Positions 551 to 37,931 of a stretch of DNA of 64,000 bases are shown in pieces. This DNA is from Dichotomocladium elegans (Eukaryota; Mucoromycota; Mucoromycetes; Mucorales; Lichtheimiaceae). Position numbers and translations under genes: made by a program. The stretch spans positions 310,001 through 374,000 of the forward strand of contig JAIXMN010000029.1 in assembly GCA_025716815.1 (NCBI GenBank), written 5' to 3'. The notes beneath the pieces are model-generated. The model saw only the letters and a program-made list of their open reading frames with translations, had not been told where the DNA came from and ran no database searches. Numbering within the stretch: position 1 is the first letter of the stretch; each line of letters starts with the position of its first letter.

Positions 551-1570
551 ATGCATATTCATTATTTATTTATCCTGCTAGTTTGGGCTGCACTGGTTGT
601 GCTGGCCCGACTTGAACCAGGGGAAATAGACGACTTGATGAACAAACAAGAACAGTTCGCCAAACGAGGTTGGTTCGGTTTCAACCCGCTCTATTCGTAG
701 CAAATTCTCATTTTCCTTCATCGAACCTGTAGCCCCTCAAGGTACGAGCCACCTGACCTAACAACAATCATATCTTAGACGAAGGCGCCTTCCTCACCCG
801 CCCAATCTGATAGTCGATCAAGGACCGGGGCCGTCGTCCTCCTCTGCGGCAGCGCCGGCGCCAGCGCCAGCATCACCAGCTAGTTCACAACCTAGTCCTT
901 CGTCTGGTAGTGCTGTCTCCCAGAGTGATGGGTTGGGTAACATCCCTACCTCCTCCAGTATCGGAAATACCGTTAATCCCGGCAGCGTATCTTTTGTGAT
1001 TCCCACCGGTAGCGGGTCTGTCTCGCCCCTTTACCGGATCGATCAGCGCGAGAATGTCACTTTCTCATGGGAATATGAATCTGTGCTCATTAAGCCCATC
1101 AACCTCACCCTCGCTGCCGTAGGCCCCAATTCGGTCACATACACCATCACAACTCTCGCAGGCGGTGCAGTCAGTGCAACGTGGAATATCGCCAATGTAC
1201 CTCAGAACTCACCACTGATGCACGGTTATTACGCGATTCAACTCTACGATCAACGAGGTCTCTCGGCATCGGAATCTCCCGGATGGCTCTCGCCGCAAAC
1301 CAGTTTGACCATTGCATTTTACTCCGGAGAGACTTACGCAAACGCCACCAGTACTAAAGGTAACGTTTTTCCTCTAAAACGGGTGTGCTGTATGTGTATG
1401 CTATATATGGGCGGCCTGGTGTTGATGTGAGGCGTTGCTGTTACGGTGATGTAGGGAACGACTGTCCGCTTTGTTACTACGACGCAGCATCAACGCTCAA
1501 GGCGTACAGTACTGTCTTTATTATTGCTGTCGTGACCTCATGCTTTTTCATTTACGGTATCCTTTACTAA
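551..1570 (+). CDS. Secreted or GPI/TM-anchored DUF7137-like protein
   Basis: Likely exons are 551-668, 814-1359 and 1455-1570, joining in phase to about 259 residues. The N-terminus (MHIHYLFILLVWAALVVLA) is a signal peptide. It is followed by a Ser/Pro/Ala-rich linker and a beta-rich region with a GSVSFVIPTGSG block, typical of the fungal extracellular family annotated DUF7137. The last exon has a CPLC motif and a C-terminal hydrophobic helix ending at the stop (TVFIIAVVTSCFFIYGILY), so the protein is probably membrane- or wall-anchored. The exon 2/3 junction (AAAG/gtaacg to gatgtag/GG) is clear. The first acceptor is uncertain: 813 keeps phase, while a better branch point (ctaac) precedes an AG at 777-778. 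Its biochemical role is unknown. Confidence 0.75.
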
Positions 1571-2545
1571 CAAAGAGCGCGAGGACAATCATTGGTGGGT
1601 TGTGAGTCATCGACATTTACTAGAGGAGGAGGAAAATAAACACCACATCATTGGATAATGCACTTTTATCCAGGATATGCGGTGTATGTTGTTTGTGTTG
1701 CATGCATTGAGCAACTGAAAAAAAAGGGCGGGTCAATCGGACTTGGCCGTTTTGAACGCCAAACAAAATGATCGAAGAGGGGGGTGGATAGATGAGCCAT
1801 GCTCAAGACAGATCATAATTGACCTGACTTCGGCAAACGGGAAATACGATGTCTGCCCACATGATGAGAACTCAGCTGCGTTTTATTAAAACATGCCCTT
1901 CCACCCTCTCCCGCTTTTGATTGCCTAACCATTAAAAATAGTGTGGGAACCGGGATTATAGAGGTTCAGAGGAGAAACAACATGAATGGCATCAGACTTT
2001 TTCATATCTTAACATGGACAGAAGATTTCTCCATGCTCGGGTGACACATTCCTCTCCAATCCTATTGCCTTGCTGTTGTTGTTGCTATGATCTTTTCCTA
2101 TATCGTTCGCAGCTAGTTGAGCATAGTGATCCCCAGTATTGAATTGGTACGGACATATGTGGGCTGACGAACCCTCCTTACCTTTCGGGTCTCTTACAGG
2201 ATCGATGCGCACTTGTCGCTAAAATGGTGTAGTCGAGTAGAAACGCGTGCAGGTATGTGTATGTGCGTGTGCAAAAAAAAGAAGCGCAGAGAAATATAAG
2301 GTTGGAAGTGCAGGAGAAAAGGAAAGAGGTCTCTCACTCTTATCTGAAAAAGAGAGGGTGTTACCTTCCTGTCCGGGGATGGGTCAGACGATGACCTTGA
2401 AGGTTTTTTTTTTGGGGGGGGACATGGATCATTAGATAAACGCAACAACGCACATCTTTTTTTTTTTTACCTTTTCTTTTCCCGTCGCTCTTCTTTACTT
2501 CTCCCAAACGACTGACCGAGAAAACCTTCTGCTTGTCGGGTTGAA
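1571..2545. other. Intergenic, no gene seen
   Basis: AT-rich sequence with short homopolymers and no frame showing coding character. It separates the DUF7137-like gene from the Ecl1-like gene and presumably holds the latter's promoter. Confidence 0.5.
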
Positions 2546-3027
2546 ATGGAGCTGAATATTTGCCTTTACTGCGAAAAACGGTTGCTAGACGACGTATGTA
2601 TTCCAATCGTACATGGGTGATATTAACGATATGGCCTGTCAACAACAAAGAGAAAGAATTGCTATAATTCGCTTTTATGCGGTATGAAGATTGATGTACG
2701 TTCGACTTTTATATACAGACAATGCCTTTCTGCTCGTCTACCTGCCGAGCGAGTGAAGAAAACAAGGTATCCACCTTAACATCAGGCATTGACATGGAAA
2801 CGCGACTGTTTACAACAACAAGCATCAGCCATCGTCGCTGTCGTCGCCGAGTCATCTCTGCTACAATCAGCAGCCCTAATAACCCGTTGACTTCCTATCA
2901 CCATAAGAGTACGCCACTCTCACGCGTTTCATCTACCTCGTCTGCTCTCTCGGATGACGCGCCATTGTTTTATTTCGCTTGCAAGGATAATAAGCCGGCG
3001 TCGAGCATGATGTTGCTGCTGCACTAG
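2546..3027 (+). CDS. Ecl1-family zinc-binding protein (extender of chronological lifespan)
   Basis: Two exons, 2546-2593 and 2719-3027, join in phase 0 across a GTATGT...tacag intron to give 118 residues. Exon 1 (MELNICLYCEKRLLDD) carries a CxxC pair and exon 2 opens with FCSSTCRASEENK, the second Cys pair. This short N-terminal four-cysteine motif followed by a long Ser/Thr-rich tail is the pattern of the Ecl1/2/3 family (Pfam Ecl1), small fungal zinc proteins linked to nutrient-limitation response and lifespan in fission yeast. The tail contains several Ser/Thr runs and no other domain. Exon 1 is only 16 codons, so an ORF scan would miss the first zinc ligands. The family call rests on motif pattern, not alignment. 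Confidence 0.72.
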
Positions 3028-3471
3028 CTCTACTGTATATGTCGCATTTACCGTCCTGCCGTGCTTCGTTGAGGTTTGTATATCTGCGCAGGCACTTTTA
3101 TCCAACCCCTGCCCATCTTTTTGGCCATGTCTATGATCTGTATATGCGCGTTTCTTTTTCTTTCTTTTTTCATCATTCTATCATTTGACCTCCCATAGTT
3201 TCCATATTATCCTCACCATCCACTTGCTCACTTACTCATATATATATGTTCATCTCGCCTACTGTGTATCCATGAGCTACCGCTATCTTTATGATTTTTT
3301 TTGTTGTCTTGATCTTTAGCCCCATTTGCTGTATTAAAGATATTTTTGTTGTTTTATAGCGATGGTGAGGATATACTGTAGGCTTTGGATGTACCTCCCA
3401 TCCCGGGATAGCTCACTGGAACGCGGAAGGAAATAAAAGCACACAAACACACGTGCACGCATATATATATC

Positions 3472-26706: not shown

Positions 26707-27309
26707 CTACCATATAGTTCAGCACATCACAAAGTAGACACTTCATCAGATGATAATGCTTGATACTTTGATTAGCCTAGAAATGGGCATACATGCGCGT
26801 GTGCACGTGTGTATTTAGTTCCATGCAAGTAAAATCATGCATCGTTCCTCGGTTAAAAGAAAAAAGAGAGAGAACAGAGCAACAACATCAGGGCATAGAA
26901 CATACCACTTGTGGCCGTCGAGGTATACTGGCGGACTACAATGGTCTACTTGAGTCTCGAGTTTTGACCAGTTTGGTATCCGCCATTGGCAGGAGTAGGT
27001 CGCTTTAATACTACCGACTAAAGTTGCAACGATAGCTCAGCACAAGTCTTTCTTTTTTTTGCAATGACAATTCACAATGTCGATATACTCTCTGTCATTT
27101 GGTTATGAAATGCGGCTTGTGAGCTTCTCGGGTGGAGGAAAGAGGAGAAAGAAAGAGAAAGAAAGAGGGTGGCACAGGACCCATCCTGTTTTCGTCGTTG
27201 TGTGACTACAGCAGAACAAACCCCTTTGCTGACGTTTTGTTATACACCGTTTTCCGTGTCCTAGCAGCTCTGAAGCCGCAAAATCACAAAAATAGAAGTC
27301 GCGCTTTGT
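26707..27309. other. Unassigned sequence upstream of the MATH-BTB gene
   Basis: Probably holds the missing first exon(s) and promoter of the MATH-BTB gene. No exon could be placed with confidence. Confidence 0.35.
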
Positions 27310-27600
27310 CCAGGCATCTTTGCGCATGAGAACAAAGCAAATGTCGCATGAACGGCAGAAGGTCCCGCATAAAAAGAGCCTCCATCTCTAAATACATCGA
27401 GTCTCGAAGATGTCGATACGCTTATCTGCCATCCTATTCACCTGATCTCATTCCTATTGAACAGTTTTGGTCGGTTGTGAAGAACAAAGTAAAACGTAAT
27501 AGATCCTTGGAGAGCAAGACATTGATGACCCGAATCAGTGATGCATCGAATAGCTTAAAGTTGGAACTATGAACCGACTTGTGATAATATACAGAGACCA
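27310..27600 (+). mobile_element. Tc1/mariner fragment, copy 3 (transposase C-terminus)
   Basis: The segment near 27323-27348 (gcgcatgagaacaaagcaaa then tgtcgcatg) matches the 5' region of copy 2 next to 37.78 kb. The sequence then jumps to the transposase C-terminus: 27378-27572 encodes YIESRRCRYAYLPSYSPD, IPIEQFWSVVKNKVKRN and a short basic tail ending at TGA-free TGA-proximal stop at 27572. The central transposase, including both catalytic Asp residues, is missing. This copy alone keeps the Trp after EQF and the natural C-terminus. Orientation is opposite to copies 1 and 2. Confidence 0.7.
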
Positions 27601-29077
27601 TCACGGCATAGATATGGATATGGATATGTTGAGAGAGGAAAAAGAGTGGATATGAGAAGATGTTGGATCCCGGATTTCTTTGAATAGGGTGAACGGATTG
27701 GTGAGATGTAAAGAGCACTACTCCTATATACAATGATGGAGAGTTAGATCGGACCTCAGATAAAAACAAAGAACGAGACTCTATAACTATGACGCATGAT
27801 AGGTCACTTGTTTGATAGCATAGGACAGCTCATCAGCGAAACAGATGGCAAAAAACTTGGTCATGTTTGAGTTCTTTGTAGCTTGCTTATCATTGATAAA
27901 TAATGTACAATTACACGCATGTTCAGCGATATGAGACAACGAATTTGATGCAGAGTGGTTTTAATACACAGCTGGTGGCGCACAACAACACAGACTCTCT
28001 TGCTGTCTCGTAATCAAACAATGTCACTCCGTCTGTCCTATTACCCCTGATGCAATGGTTGGCAGCTAAGTCATCGCCTGTGTGTACCTTGGTCGTCATG
28101 ATGGTAATATGAAAAAAATCAAAGGACGCGTTTAAACTTGTCTGCGACAAAACGGTGAGCTGATAAACAAGAAGAGGATATCATATGAATATGTCACGGT
28201 ACTCGTTTCATCATTGTCCATCACATGGATGACTGATTTCTCGTAAATAATAAAGATTATGAGCGAACTATTTCCTCTTTATCAAATCCATCCGTGGCCT
28301 CGCTTCCATGGGTTATCCGATATGGATTTTATATCGACTTGCTTGTTAGTATTCGAATCCAACACTTTCTGTCCTTTGTAAATTGACCAATCATAGTCAT
28401 GCTTCATGAGCCATGGAAGAGAGGTCAGAACGGAATGGCACCATCCGGTGAGGCCGTGATTTGGTTGCCATCGGGAAGAGCATTCTCCTCTTTATTTAGG
28501 GGGTCTTGCGTTGCCTGTCCTTGCTCCTGGCGCTGCTTCTGGCACACCGCCAATCAGCCGGCATGGTTACCACCATGTGGAAACCTGGATACGCCTGATG
28601 TGAGCCGGGTAGGTAAGTCAAAGTGTAGAGGAGACGTTTTATGTTGACTAACGAAATCGTTTTACCTGATGATACGACAATTTCATAATCTTTGCGACAC
28701 TATTTTATCTTGTATTCGAAATTTATTTTGGAGAATAAAGTACTATACGTATTGCACACATCTGTGACCAATTGAAATCAGTAAAAGCATAAACCATTCT
28801 CGGTCCAGAATGAAGAGCATCACTAGCAGACTATGTATCTTGTACACTTCAGTCCATTGTCAGTGCTGTCTCATCCCGTTTATGGAAATCGGCAGCAAAT
28901 CGCATGTCATTGACATAAGGTTTGGCCGGCATACTGTACCTTAATCTCGGGTACAACACATCGGGTTTAAAAACGTACTACCCTATTTAATTTTCGTGCT
29001 GGATGTCATCCGAAAATGTTAATAATAACGGGAAAATAAGCGGGATTGAACATTGTATAAACAGCGACCTTTTTGTG
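27601..29077. other. Intergenic, no gene seen
   Basis: About 1.5 kb at the 3' side of the ABC transporter gene. A GC-richer patch at 28420-28620 has an 82-codon open frame without recognisable motifs; I do not call it. Confidence 0.4.
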
Positions 29078-33531: not shown

Positions 33532-33784
33532 CAGTGTACGGAAATATTTAGTTATACTTTATTTTCAAAAATAAATTTCGCAAGTGGGGAAAAATTATGT
33601 CGCATGAAAATAAAATAAAATGGCGTATCAAGATGGAAAGGATTTCACATTGATTGGTTGAGAGATTTTAGTCACCAGAAAATATTATCCCTTCCCCAAC
33701 ACTTTAACTTACCCCGAAGGTATCCAGATGTGTGCCGGCGATAACCGACACGGAAAATCATCGCTGTTGGCGACCTCGTCCTGG
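33532..33784 (-). ncRNA. Candidate fRNA (omega-RNA-like) region at the Fanzor 3' end
   Basis: This lies between the Fanzor stop and the transposon end, where TnpB and Fanzor loci encode their guide-RNA scaffold. Two blocks can fold and are conserved in copy 1 at the same place and order. On the minus strand, 33722-33709 reads TACCTTCGGGGTAA, a short stem closed by a C(UUCG)G-type loop (copy 1: 12408-12395). 33575-33558 is TTTATTTT-TG-AAAATAAA, an 8-bp perfect hairpin near the end (copy 1 has one extra A). TGTCGCATG is also shared. Position and conservation are seen; transcription and function are inferred. Confidence 0.4.
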
Positions 33785-36414
33785 TCATCTTCGTCTCACC
33801 CTTCGCTCGTCGGGCTCTGGTGATCTAGCCCTCCTTGCTAGGCGCCTGTCACCACCCGCAGGTGCTCGCCGAAACCTTTCCGGGACCATGCCATCGGCCC
33901 GAAAACTCCTGAGAATATGTATCATATTCAGGCAGGCCGTCATATCACGGTTCCACAATCGCTGCCGAGGAGCGCCCTCTGCCATGCCTGCTGTACAGTT
34001 TTGATTTGAGCATCTGCACAGAATAAGCGACATTAGATTATCATTATTGTTTCAAACTCCTCCCCGAATAAGGCTTCATACCGTAGCAGGCCATGACAGA
34101 TAACGTTTGGATTCTCGGCTCTTCGATAGGGGCGTGGGTTGGGTACCCTCCGGAACGTAGAAAGGCTCTCGGTCTCGCACGCGGGGCAACATCTGCTGGT
34201 CTTGAATTCGTCGATCAAGTATACATCAAAGCGACGTTCGCCTTGCTTGAGAAGTCGCCGGAATCCAACACCGCGGATTGGCTCGTGGTATCGAGTGTTC
34301 GGGGCAGATCTATTACCCATCACAAATACCGCGTGGGAGCCAAACTTGTTGATCAGACCGTCCCTCAGCTTCTCATCTGCTCGTTGTTTGTTGATGTACG
34401 ACGACAGACGGAGCTTTCGGAAAAGAGGTGGGGATCGGGATTATGGGTGGCGGTATTCGCATAGAAGTTCTCGAGAACTTGGGACACTTGGGACCGGACA
34501 AGCAGGAAGCGGTCATAATCGGCACGATCCAAGCTGCGGGAATGCTCGCCAGCCATGCGTGCCTCGGCATGCACTTCACGTTCCCCATTCTTGAGCCTCT
34601 GCAACAACCTGCGGTACTTGTTGGTCTTGCGCACCTTGTCCTGACGAGGTTTGGTATATCGGAACGTCAGACGGGCACCTCGTTCCGGCCTGGAATTCTC
34701 TGAGACGCAGAAAAGGAGGTCCCTCCTCCCAGGGTCGACGGTGACGCACCTACCAGCAATATTCTGGTGTTCCTGTAATGTCAGCATGCTGACATAATTG
34801 GTCTCCTCCTCGACTCCTCGGTACTTTGCTCCGTATGATGGTCGTTGATTGTTCGTCCTCTTGAAAACAGTGACGCCTACTCCATCAGTATGGATTGTGC
34901 CATGGAACTCGATCGTTCCGCCTTCTTGGGGTCTGAAAGCATGAGAGTCGAGGTCCACAACCTCTCCCCACAGAGCCAACTTCTGGCTGATGTCGTGTCT
35001 TGGCCTCTTTAGAATATGCTGTACAAGAATCGTGGTGTCGATCTGCATATAGCAAGGGGCCCAGGATCGGCGAAGCGGAAAACATTGGAAGCTGCGAAGA
35101 CCATTGCGTTGGAAAACATAGGCAAGCTCTATGAACGGCCGGAAGTGGTTGGCTGAACGCGCCTTGGCGTCGCAGTAGATGCTTTGTTTTTGGAACTGGT
35201 ACCCTTGGGGATAAGCATCCAAGACCGGTTGGATCTGGTCGAACGCTTGCCTGAGGAAAGCTGGTTCCGCCGGAATGTCATCCCTCCGCACACCTCGGCG
35301 GGCAATGGCGAGCTTGAAGCCTGTGGCATGGCGAGTGATGGTGTCGTAAATATCCTGGCGGATTTGCTACTCGGTCCAGCCGAGTGCGTCCAGTTCACGT
35401 CTCCTCGCCGCTTTCCGCTCTCGAATGTTCAGGAGAGCATTCACCGCGCGCCGAAGGTGCTGCCCGAACCGCATGTTGATATTGTTGCAGTATGCAACAA
35501 ACATCTTCTTACCTTCGAACGCAGAGAATTGCTGGGAATTCTTGAGCTGCGGCCGTTGGTACTGGGTGGCCTCGAGGTAATCCTCCAAAAACTCGCCGAT
35601 CAGAGCTCGGCACTCGCCGGAAAACCCCCGGGTTGGACGAACTCGCTTGTCGAGCATGGAGAGCCACACCTCAGAGAAGAATTTTTCGTGCAGGAACTGT
35701 TGGAGGTTGAAGTCCGGCTCGCGTTCGCGCTTACGTAGGAAGATGTACTTGGCGAAGCTGTACGCATGGGTTGTTGTCGCATGGACAACAGCGACCAAGT
35801 CCATCAACGGTTGGCAGTAGGCGGGGTTCCAGCGGATGCCTTGTATAGAGGTCTTGACACCTAACATACGGTCAGTGGGCCTGAGGTTGGGTTGGGCAGG
35901 GTTTACGCCCCTCCTCCTGGTGGGGTCGACAGGTTATTCCATGTCTTCACCAGTAGAGGGCTGTGATATTATCTCTTAGCACAAATCTTCTAGTCATGTC
36001 TTATTCCAGAAGCCTTACCGTCTAATGTCGGAATGTGCTTTTGTGTTCTTCGCCTTGGGTTGTATGAGTTGTGTAAGGTGAGAGAGATGTGTAATACGAG
36101 TGTGTTTGTAACGGGTTTTAGAATACGCAAGTGGTAAAGAAAACGGCTTGGTCGAACCTCATTATTTTATAGTAAATCAAGGTCTCCGTTCCAACCTGCG
36201 TGGATGGGGTACTATGAAGTGCATATCATATGATAAGCAAAAATACTCACTACAACGAAATGTTATATAGGTTATCGATTTCAGCCTGTTGGACAGTTAC
36301 CGGAGAGCGGGGTGAGGGGTAGGCACTGCTCAGGGCCTCCTGGTTCATCCGCTGCAACCGACCCTCTAATTGGTGGATGAGTTCAAGGTCACCCTCCTCT
36401 TCAATGTCAAGCAT
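33785..36414 (-). pseudogene. Fanzor (eukaryotic TnpB-like RNA-guided nuclease), two lesions
   Basis: Core coding runs 35880-34082 and, after a 68-nt intron (GTATGA...GTGCAG, 34081-34014), 34013-33785. Visible motifs: RuvC-I VTVDPGRRD (Asp codon 34736-34734); the GNRSAPNTRYHEPIRG block; LIDEFKTSRCCPAC with the Glu that Fanzors use as rearranged catalytic residue (34209-34207) and the first zinc pair; GLLR/CSNQNC, the second zinc pair split by the intron; and LWNRDMTACLNM with RuvC-III Asp (33946-33944). From ATG 35867 the length is about 671 codons, a normal Fanzor size. Lesions: an in-frame TAG at 35369-35367 and a one-base shift near the T4 run at 34421-34424. Upstream, a 55-codon open frame from ATG 36414 and a segment ending SDIR at 36019 (GTAAGG donor, acceptor at 35881) look like N-terminal exons. 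Confidence 0.88.
35881..36018 (-). other. Probable Fanzor 5' intron
   Basis: The donor GTAAGG follows ...GACATTAGACG and the acceptor is CAACCTCAG. Joining gives R-R-P-T-D-R-M-L-G-V-K in an unbroken frame, placing basic residues just before the conserved start of the Fanzor core. A second intron further upstream, perhaps from GTAACT near 36303 to an AAG near 36062, is less certain. Confidence 0.5.
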
Positions 36415-36708
36415 TCATTGCTTGGCAAATGCAATGAATGCACTGTATCCATGTTCCTTTTTAGGGAAACATTCTACTGCTGCATTTTTTCATCCTTGTT
36501 TCCTTTATACATCAACTTTTTGATGGAACAATTGTGCTCATCACAATGTAGCCACGCGGATACCAAACTTTAACAATTTAAAGATAGGAGTGTGCAGCGC
36601 AGACATACTAATTATGGACCATGTATTCATGTCACTTACCCTGGGAACTCTCTAATCTGAAACTCATATACTTAGGAATAAGATACCTTATTCCTCCTCC
36701 TGGGCGCA

Positions 36709-37466
36709 GTGAGGGTGGAAGATAGGCGCATCAATATCCTCAGCTTTATGAATGGGTGGATTATCCATTACCAAATAATGTCCCTTCAGATGTTCATGCT
36801 TATCCATTTCATCCATGGTAGCCTTAAGGAAGCTGAGATAATGTCCAGTGATAGTTTCCTTGCTTGCAGCTGCGGGCTGCCCCGCTCTGTTTCTTCTTTG
36901 GCTAGTGGTCGTGGGAGTCTCAAGCTACATTTAATGATGCCTGATGCCGAGATTGCTCCCAAGATGGTAGCTGTTTTTACTCTTGTATTCGGTACTGTAA
37001 CTACTGCACAAGTCCCTTTCTTGGACCATGCCATGCTGCGCTTCATGTTAATATGGAATCCAGACTCATCAAGAAAAACGCAGTTTTTTCTAAGGTCGAT
37101 GTCGGTCCTGTCCCATCTGCGCACCCAGTCAAGGCGTTCTTGGACCTTTGCATCGCTATTCCTGTCTACAGGCTGAAACCGAGCCATTTTCAATGACAAA
37201 TTGCATTCGGTTTTCATAAATCGATGGAGCGTCGTTTTGGATACTTTGAGACTCTTAAATCTCTGGAGCAGTTGTTCCATCAGCTGCTCTAGGACAATTG
37301 ACGGATTCTCAACAACCCATTCTAAAATAACACTCTTATCCTCTTCGTTGAGAATATATGAACGACCTCTGCCTCTACGTTTCTTAAAAATGCTGTCAGG
37401 GTCCTTTCCGTACTGTGATGCCCGTCGCTGAGCTGAACGAACATGGATTCCTAGCAGCTGATGCAC
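36709..37466 (-). pseudogene. IS630/Tc1-mariner transposase of the Fanzor transposon, inactivated
   Basis: The open part (37466 downward) contains a helix-turn-helix region (SKTTLHRFMKTECNLSLKMA), the first catalytic Asp (VFLDESGFHINMKRSMAWSKKG) and conserved TVPNTRVKTATILGAISASG. It then slips out of frame near 36900; the second catalytic block (HYLVMDNPPIHKAEDI) is readable in the next frame at about 36785-36740. Relative to copy 1, 28 nt are missing between two GAGGATAT repeats, and homology stops after CACCCT at about 36712, so the YSPE...EQFW block with the catalytic Glu is lost. This copy cannot mobilise itself, though its ends might still be recognised in trans. Confidence 0.82.
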
Positions 37467-37931
37467 TCAATACCTTCTCAAACATCAGCTTGAAATATCT
37501 GATCTTGTCATGGTCAGTGTACGCTGTATAACTGCGCTTTTTTCATCCGAATGTCCGTATCCTTTCTCTTGGGAATGTGCGCGGCAGTAAGCTCAAAGTT
37601 ATCTTTGCAAGATATGCTAAGCAGATATTCTGTATGAGAACAAACGGATTGCAGTGAGTACATTTCTTTATTAACGACATGGCCTTGACCATCGTAAAAA
37701 AATAGATTGCTCATTTTTTCAGAATGTAAAGTTTTCTTGAGCGACATCTTTCGCCGTGTATTGCGACATTTGCTTTATCATCATGCGTAAAGATTTCTGG
37801 GCAAAACACGACTTCTATTTTTGTAATCCTGCGACTTCAGAACTGACTGGGGTACGACTTTAATTTTGGAAAACACTGTATGTTACAGAAGGATGGAGGA
37901 GTTGCAGCGCAAAAGTAAACAGAATAATGCA

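Follow-up and report, generated by a model that had tools for sequence, protein, structure and literature searches.

A Fanzor1 gene carried by a decayed mariner-type element of Dichotomocladium elegans, and the one-sided insertion flanks of its relatives

What does an RNA-guided nuclease do for the cut-and-paste transposon that carries it? This question is raised by a locus in the genome of the mucoralean fungus Dichotomocladium elegans. The window analyzed here (64,000 nucleotides; assembly GCA_025716815.1, contig JAIXMN010000029.1, positions 310,001 to 374,000) holds on its minus strand an IS630/Tc1/mariner-type element with the remains of a transposase gene and of a gene for a Fanzor, a eukaryotic homologue of TnpB. 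We consider it probable that this locus is an old, broken copy of such an element with a Fanzor1 cargo, and that its open sister copies home or retain the element in the way proposed below. What Fanzors do biologically has been described as unknown (PMC10432273), and a genome with at least 126 Fanzor matches, including one young selected family, makes that role testable.

A broken Fanzor1 gene

The element was oriented with the transposase side as its left end (37878) and the Fanzor side as its right end (33557), that is, along the minus strand. Its boundaries were compared with those of four near relatives (L064-L067, ~95-97% identical in the matched parts) and of two loci, L068 and L069, from a sister family, here called family 2. 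In the order in which they are read, the features are the following.

37879..37882, minus strand: left-flank 4-mer CATA (TA plus CA), predicted position of the target-adjacent motif (TAM)
33557..37878, minus strand: whole IS630/Tc1/mariner-type element, 4,322 bp, with boundaries common to L064-L067
37855..37878, minus strand: left-end inverted repeat CAGTGTTTTCCAAAATTAAAGTCG
37514..37774, minus strand: N-terminal transposase fragment (MSNLFF...), from tblastn with the L041 transposase
36786..37466, minus strand: transposase fragment with helix-turn-helix and first catalytic D (FLDESG); DDE_3 E=6.9e-6, HTH_32 E=1.3e-4, both below the curated cut-off
36688..36924, minus strand: transposase fragment containing the second D (VMDNPP) but without a match to the region of the third acidic residue; DDE_3 E=0.0015, below the curated cut-off
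35367..35933, minus strand: first open part of Fanzor1 exon 1, ended by a stop, with part of REC and a QQ pair (within 35520-35540)
34365..35366, minus strand: second open part of Fanzor1 exon 1, with WED and the RuvC I motif VDPGRRD; phmmer 9cf0 E=5.8e-48, 8gkh E=6.2e-20
34082..34440, minus strand: third part of Fanzor1 exon 1, beyond a frameshift, with the RuvC II glutamate (DEFKTS), the first cysteine pair of the zinc finger and GLLR
34014..34081, minus strand: intron of 68 bp, GTATG...CAG, at the same site in L064-L069
33785..34013, minus strand: Fanzor1 exon 2 (second cysteine pair CSNQNC, RuvC III WNRD); the homologous exon of L068 matches PpFz1 at E=0.0016
33557..33580, minus strand: right-end inverted repeat, ending ...TTTATTTTTGAAAATAAAG
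33555..33556: TA at the Fanzor-side end (presumed target duplication)
33535..33554, minus strand: flank beyond the right TA, expected position of the Fanzor RNA guide by analogy with the guide RNAs of Fanzor1 (reRNAs; PMC10711439)

An earlier sequence-only reading of this DNA had reported a Fanzor/TnpB motif set on the minus strand, and we located all of its members in the order given: VDPGRRD (34719-34739), DEFKTSRCCPAC (34177-34212), CHGLLR (34081-34098), CSNQNC (33995-34012) and WNRDMTACLNM (33923-33955). Fanzor1 proteins are marked by a DPG signature and by a TDG motif in the WED domain (PMC10711439), and both are found here, as VDPGRRD and as TDGVGV (34872-34889). The gene also follows, across several frames, the published Fanzor1 pattern D-X(125,275)-[TS][TS]-X-X-C4 zinc finger-X(5,50)-RD (PMC3627910), reading VDPGRRD ... 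EFKTSRCCPAC ... intron ... CSNQNC ... WNRD, as does L068 in its exon frames of 639 and 97 amino acids. The split of the zinc pair into GLLR and CSNQNC that had been noticed earlier is present and is due to the 68-bp intron (34081-34014); a GT...AG intron occupies the same Fanzor site in six relatives from both families (L064-L069), and the Parasitella parasitica Fanzor 1 (PpFz1) protein runs continuous across it. A divergent Fanzor1-like gene in pieces at another locus (L001, G000:C101:757892-761023; minus strand, ~3062-1234) has a zinc-finger region, GLLRCTNLNC, that reads without the intron of the two families.

As for similarity to known proteins, a phmmer comparison matched the window piece at 34365-35366 to two Fanzor1 proteins of solved structure, PpFz1 (E=5.8e-48) and Spizellomyces punctatus Fanzor 1, or SpuFz1 (E=6.2e-20). 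The corresponding values are 8.8e-113 and 1.6e-41 for the open relative L065 and 8.1e-120 and 1.2e-43 for the open relative L068, which has 114 relatives at E up to 1e-10, those named being all fungal. Neither of the outcomes that the earlier reading had named as refuting it was observed, although the Pfam zinc-ribbon model PF07282 by itself gave weak scores below its cut-off (E=0.023 for the zinc part of the window gene, 0.022 for L068). Those scores would suit a chance or non-Fanzor resemblance of the motifs, an explanation that we find hardly credible beside the matches to two solved structures and the 114 relatives, and judging from its sequence the window protein is, with near certainty, a Fanzor1.

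The gene is nevertheless broken: read in the frame of its relatives, it is interrupted by stops before 35933 and at 35367 and by a single frameshift (~34440), with the three catalytic motifs still legible. Open Fanzor frames exist in relatives, with 649 amino acids in L065 and 639 in L068, where a 97-amino-acid second-exon frame follows. Since L065 carries an altered stretch after its first cysteine pair, an open frame is no proof of a working Fanzor.

Ends of the element and decay of its transposase

Inverted repeats flanked by TA, as is usual in IS630/Tc1/mariner elements, bound the element in the window and in four relatives. Compared over L064-L067, L068 and L069, the window-family consensus is TA, CAGTGTTTTC...AAAATAAAG, TA; L065 starts with CGGTG. 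The high-coordinate boundary of the earlier reading, 37878, is correct and common to L064-L067. Its low-coordinate terminus, a CAGTGT at 33533, is not the end of the element: according to the six relatives, four near and two from the sister family, the end lies ~25 bp inward, at 33557, begins CTTTATTTTC instead of CAGTGT, and is followed by TA. The boundaries of the relatives rule out CAGTGT as both termini, and because the window contains 20 copies of this hexamer (counting both strands), we attribute its presence at 33533 to chance. Modules of the GCGACA/AAGTCGC type were seen in the last 160 bases of right ends L150-L189 and in the left ends of L068 and L069; they are inverted between the two ends, vary in copy number by eye, and resemble subterminal transposase-binding repeats.

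Between these ends, transposase pieces (37774-36688) precede the Fanzor pieces (35933-33785) on the minus strand. The transposase is spread over three frames, with its FLDESG motif at 37059-37076. When compared with the 431-residue open transposase of the relative L041, it matches in two or three frames and the match ends at residue 332-353, both in the window and in 4/4 near relatives of its family (family 1), so that the third catalytic residue, 374 in L041, lies beyond the match in all of them. In family-2 copies the match is limited to residues 1-147 (2/2). The DD34E type assigned earlier therefore fits the open relative L041, in which 34 residues separate the second D from the E (another open relative, L040, scores E=3.3e-28 with DDE_3), but in the window the match stops before the E. 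Likewise, the two genes described for this element are both present but both broken in the window. Remains of transposase and nuclease do lie between the same termini in the window and in L064-L067, and the sequences of the genome copies thus support the view that the two share one element. Given the decay in the window and in 4/4 near relatives, the transposase was probably supplied in trans, and these elements probably moved with a transposase from elsewhere.

Open transposase frames are found in two 98% identical copies, L041/L191 and L042/L190 (~C44:468181-470887 and its C57 counterpart), which have in common a left end with CATA and a joint right junction without the usual repeat or TA. 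L040, L041, L045 and L050 agree up to the transposase stop and diverge after it, L045 and L050 being alike there; this layout resembles the 5'-same, 3'-different elements noted in 2013.

Insertion sites carry a one-sided 4-mer

To describe the insertion sites, left ends were located by their inner sequence and not by their flank. The family-2 left-end pattern, with up to three mismatches, gave 131 ends, and the first 80 of the 100 listed were fetched; for further left ends, 16 of 19 places were fetched, one being dropped because it had no clear end, and further ones came from loci already fetched (the window-family loci L208 and L209 have no usable left end). After duplicate flanks had been removed, there were 65 left ends in clade B (TTTTTC ends) and 42 in clade A (TTTTCC, CAGTG and similar ends). 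TA was present at 61/65 clade-B and 36/42 clade-A left ends, the four and six ends without it being set aside, and at 48/48 clade-B and 14/15 clade-A right ends. The right flanks (n=63) consist of 40 fetched of 100 listed of 319, favoring those with a nearby left end or Fanzor, and of 23 from loci.

The 4-mer at these sites is one-sided, occurring on the transposase side only, and is mostly CATA in clade A and nearly always TATA in clade B. In clade B, position -4 is T in 61/61 left flanks and position -3 is A in 60/61; in clade A, -4 is C in 29/36 and -3 is A in 34/36, and counted over all clade-A left ends CATA is present in 28/42. Copies with CAGTG or CGGTG ends, the window's kind (a Fanzor is shown for some), have CATA in nine of ten cases and CATG in the other. 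The mirror positions on the right are much looser, with A at +4 in 31/48 and T at +3 in 34/48 for clade B (Fisher test versus left, p=1.3e-7 and 3.0e-5), and G at +4 in 2/14 and T at +3 in 10/14 for clade A (p=2.6e-5 and 0.044). As a background, TA in the window is preceded by CA in 7.9% of cases and by TA in 7.6%.

In TnpB/Fanzor systems the TAM is part of the left flank, and the guide begins past the right end (PMC10711439). The measured TAM of SpuFz1 is CATA (PMC10432273); one sentence of PMC11423790 swaps the TAMs of SpuFz1 and GtFz1, a later passage giving CATA for SpuFz1, and the same paper reports ATN for PpFz1. Our flank 4-mer has the side and register of a Fanzor TAM, clade A mostly equaling the SpuFz1 CATA and xATA being compatible with the PpFz1 ATN. 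R291 of SpuFz1 contacts the G opposite C at -4 (PMC10432273). At the position aligned with it, where the alignment is ungapped, the residue is R in 12/12 readable window-family loci (of 15), M in 25/25 family-2-type copies (15 loci plus 10 of 20 further places) and K in PpFz1. Two other TAM contacts of SpuFz1, Q129 and Q130, are conserved as Q across the five Fanzors compared.

The Fanzor of a young sister family is under purifying selection

The genome searched comprises 39.4 Mb in 122 contigs. A 202-residue piece of a dehydratase gene next to the element is most similar to proteins of Zychaea mexicana (70%), Phascolomyces (68%) and Fennellomyces (66%), which points to a Mucorales-like host. 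In this genome, at least 126 matches to the Fanzor piece were counted on scoring 121 of 550 candidates (a single gene may account for more than one), and at least 152 to the transposase (150 of 2,016 scored). A 19-mer from the right end, with up to one mismatch allowed, has 319 matches (none for the reversed control), and a degenerate left-end pattern has 364 (control, 1). Many RNA-only ghost loci would make right ends outnumber left ends, but the counts (319 right versus 364 left, with patterns of different strictness) give no sign of this.

Family 2, in which the transposase is only a remnant, is young, with a median pairwise identity of 99.35% among the 15 loci fetched, and 13 of these 15 have an open Fanzor frame of 639 amino acids. 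Relative to the majority sequence, the 13 copies (two loci were omitted for frame length) show 32 synonymous and 17 nonsynonymous Fanzor variants and no stops; under neutrality, 31% of the non-stop changes would be synonymous (binomial p=1.1e-6). The open Fanzors of family 2 are thus under purifying selection. In the window family (nine copies including the window, 310 codons), 68 synonymous, 104 nonsynonymous and 4 stop changes were counted (p=0.003), and the synonymous excess is weaker than in family 2 (Fisher p=0.0019 between families). Selection and open Fanzor frames, alongside a reduced transposase, indicate that it is the nuclease, not the transposase, that was kept during the young burst.

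How Fanzor1 might serve the element

Element identity, gene arrangement, ends, transposase decay, family-2 Fanzor selection and the one-sided 4-mer were all computed directly, and together they are suggestive of a Fanzor that helps these elements persist. For the open sister copies we envisage that a transposase given in trans would insert the element at TA, and that a transcript reading through the Fanzor-side end would then yield a guide RNA, its guide part being copied from the DNA immediately past the TA, Fanzor1 reRNAs being described as extending ~15 nt beyond the duplication (PMC10711439). Fanzor1 with this RNA could cut the empty site, in which xATA of the left flank adjoins the right flank, on the sister chromatid or in another nucleus, and repair from the filled copy would restore or spread the element. 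We further propose, tentatively and with a little less than even confidence, that insertion sites record this action. Insertions whose left flank is a TAM would persist, each Fanzor1 subfamily would leave its own 4-mer (CATA or TATA) with the TAM-reading residue changed alongside, and Fanzor1 would serve as a nuclease for the homing or retention of a cut-and-paste transposon, supporting a burst with a dead transposase. The one-sided flank is a hint of how the enzyme serves the transposon; if the proposal is true, the TAM of each family could be predicted from where its copies are inserted, and the right flank of each native copy would reveal its guide.

Several points weigh against this proposal. 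The left and right flanks come from partly different elements, and the clade of right ends was assigned by a crude rule. No usable empty site was found on comparing the element flanks with the loci examined, and a duplication of TA is therefore presumed from the form of the ends and from what is known of the superfamily. A CATA left flank also occurs in the clade-A loci L040, L041, L042, L045 and L050, for which there is no same-strand Fanzor match nearby among the matches listed and no right end recognized in the stretch examined (an opposite-strand open Fanzor lies beside L042), and -4 is T in 27/28 clade-B left ends without a Fanzor hit, four of the 28 representing one duplicated flank. Some of these Fanzor-less ends may be served in trans, but a transposase preference is the simpler account of them. 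The SpuFz1 TAM contacts R96 and N133 are kept in neither family (R96 lies in a gappy part), and the R/M contrast is one evolutionary difference between two clades, which could be a coincidence. Finally, RNA folds of the right ends are not unusual (z of -1.1, +0.5 and -1.4, compared with -1.1 for a left-end stretch), and the modules upstream of the last 25 right-end bases vary in number by eye.

The foremost alternative is that the 4-mer reflects a target preference of the transposase, the two ends of the element differing in sequence, with Fanzor1 as a passenger or a site-independent helper. The Fanzor-less relatives with the same flanks are what it would lead one to expect, and left-end clade and Fanzor clade are confounded in our data. 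It does not by itself account for the strict side being the predicted TAM side, for clade A having a measured Fanzor1 TAM, or for the different residues of the two clades at the position that contacts the -4 pair; moreover, an idle Fanzor is not expected to be under purifying selection in a recent burst. We regard this preference as a serious possibility, if a rather doubtful one. Fanzor1 might instead be retained because it does something else, for example control or exclusion of related elements, in which case the retention model is wrong. Selection shows only that the protein matters, and the biological role of Fanzors has been called unknown (PMC10432273), but another role does not predict a one-sided flank and we consider it unlikely.

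Relation to known systems

PUl denotes an oomycete. Fanzor1 genes in TA-flanked Tc/mariner elements, with or without a transposase, were described in 2013 as PUl-1, PGv-1 and PUl-4 (Bao and Jurka, PMC3627910), PGv being an algal virus, and Fanzor1 families were listed there for Rhizopus, Phycomyces and Mucor. The premise of the sequence-only reading, that TnpB homologues in eukaryotic mariner elements were already established, is borne out by that description, and our locus is a further example of an arrangement known since then. As in PUl-1, PGv-1 and PUl-4, Fanzor1 lies between inverted repeats flanked by TA, and Fanzor-only elements exist there too (PMC3627910). The hosts are different, and a single Mucorales-like genome here contains related ends in their hundreds, two clades that differ in their left flanks and a young burst of copies with a defective transposase. 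In the part of the Fanzor/TnpB literature that was searched, mostly non-subscription papers, we found no report of clade-specific one-sided flanks or of Fanzor selection in a transposase-defective burst.

The nearest solved relative is PpFz1 (PDB 9cf0-9cf3), with which the RuvC and zinc motifs align. PpFz1-like Fanzors have a RuvC insertion that binds cyclophilin, FRI, at ~986-1095 of the PpFz1 chain; the Fanzors described here are without it, with ~8 residues opposite in L065. SpuFz1 (PDB 8gkh and others) aligns over most of the protein (L065, 1.6e-41), its CATA TAM is the usual flank of the window's clade, and the R at the R291 position is kept in the window's family. It differs in that no transposase was found within the Spu-1 repeats (PMC10432273), and the sister clade departs from it in having TATA flanks and M at the R291 position. 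The TnpB proteins of IS200/IS605 and IS607 are proposed to follow a similar logic, with a guide past the right end, a TAM at the left flank and cutting of the empty site (PMC10711439, PMC10432273), but the element here is eukaryotic, its transposase is of the DDE type and it is flanked by TA. Nothing like a TnpA-type transposase was seen within the element, although no search was aimed at one.

Other copies in the window and genome

Where a single deletion relative had been noted earlier, the window holds two Fanzor-less relatives.

12291..~13915, minus strand: Fanzor-less relative with a transposase part and a right end; left end not found
27245..28740, plus strand: Fanzor-less relative with TA on both sides and left flank TATA

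Elsewhere in the genome, a 609-amino-acid open Fanzor1 frame (L190, ~1463-3289, C57) lies beside the L042 element on the opposite strand; its residue at the position of R291 is M, and no ends belonging to it were found. At L029, a family-2 element has apparently inserted beside the left end of an older related mariner-type element, which lies beyond its right end. Four left ends (L118, L123, L124 and L139) have identical flanks (CTGTA) and lie each within ~11 kb of a contig end; they perhaps represent a single insertion multiplied through duplication of contig-end DNA.

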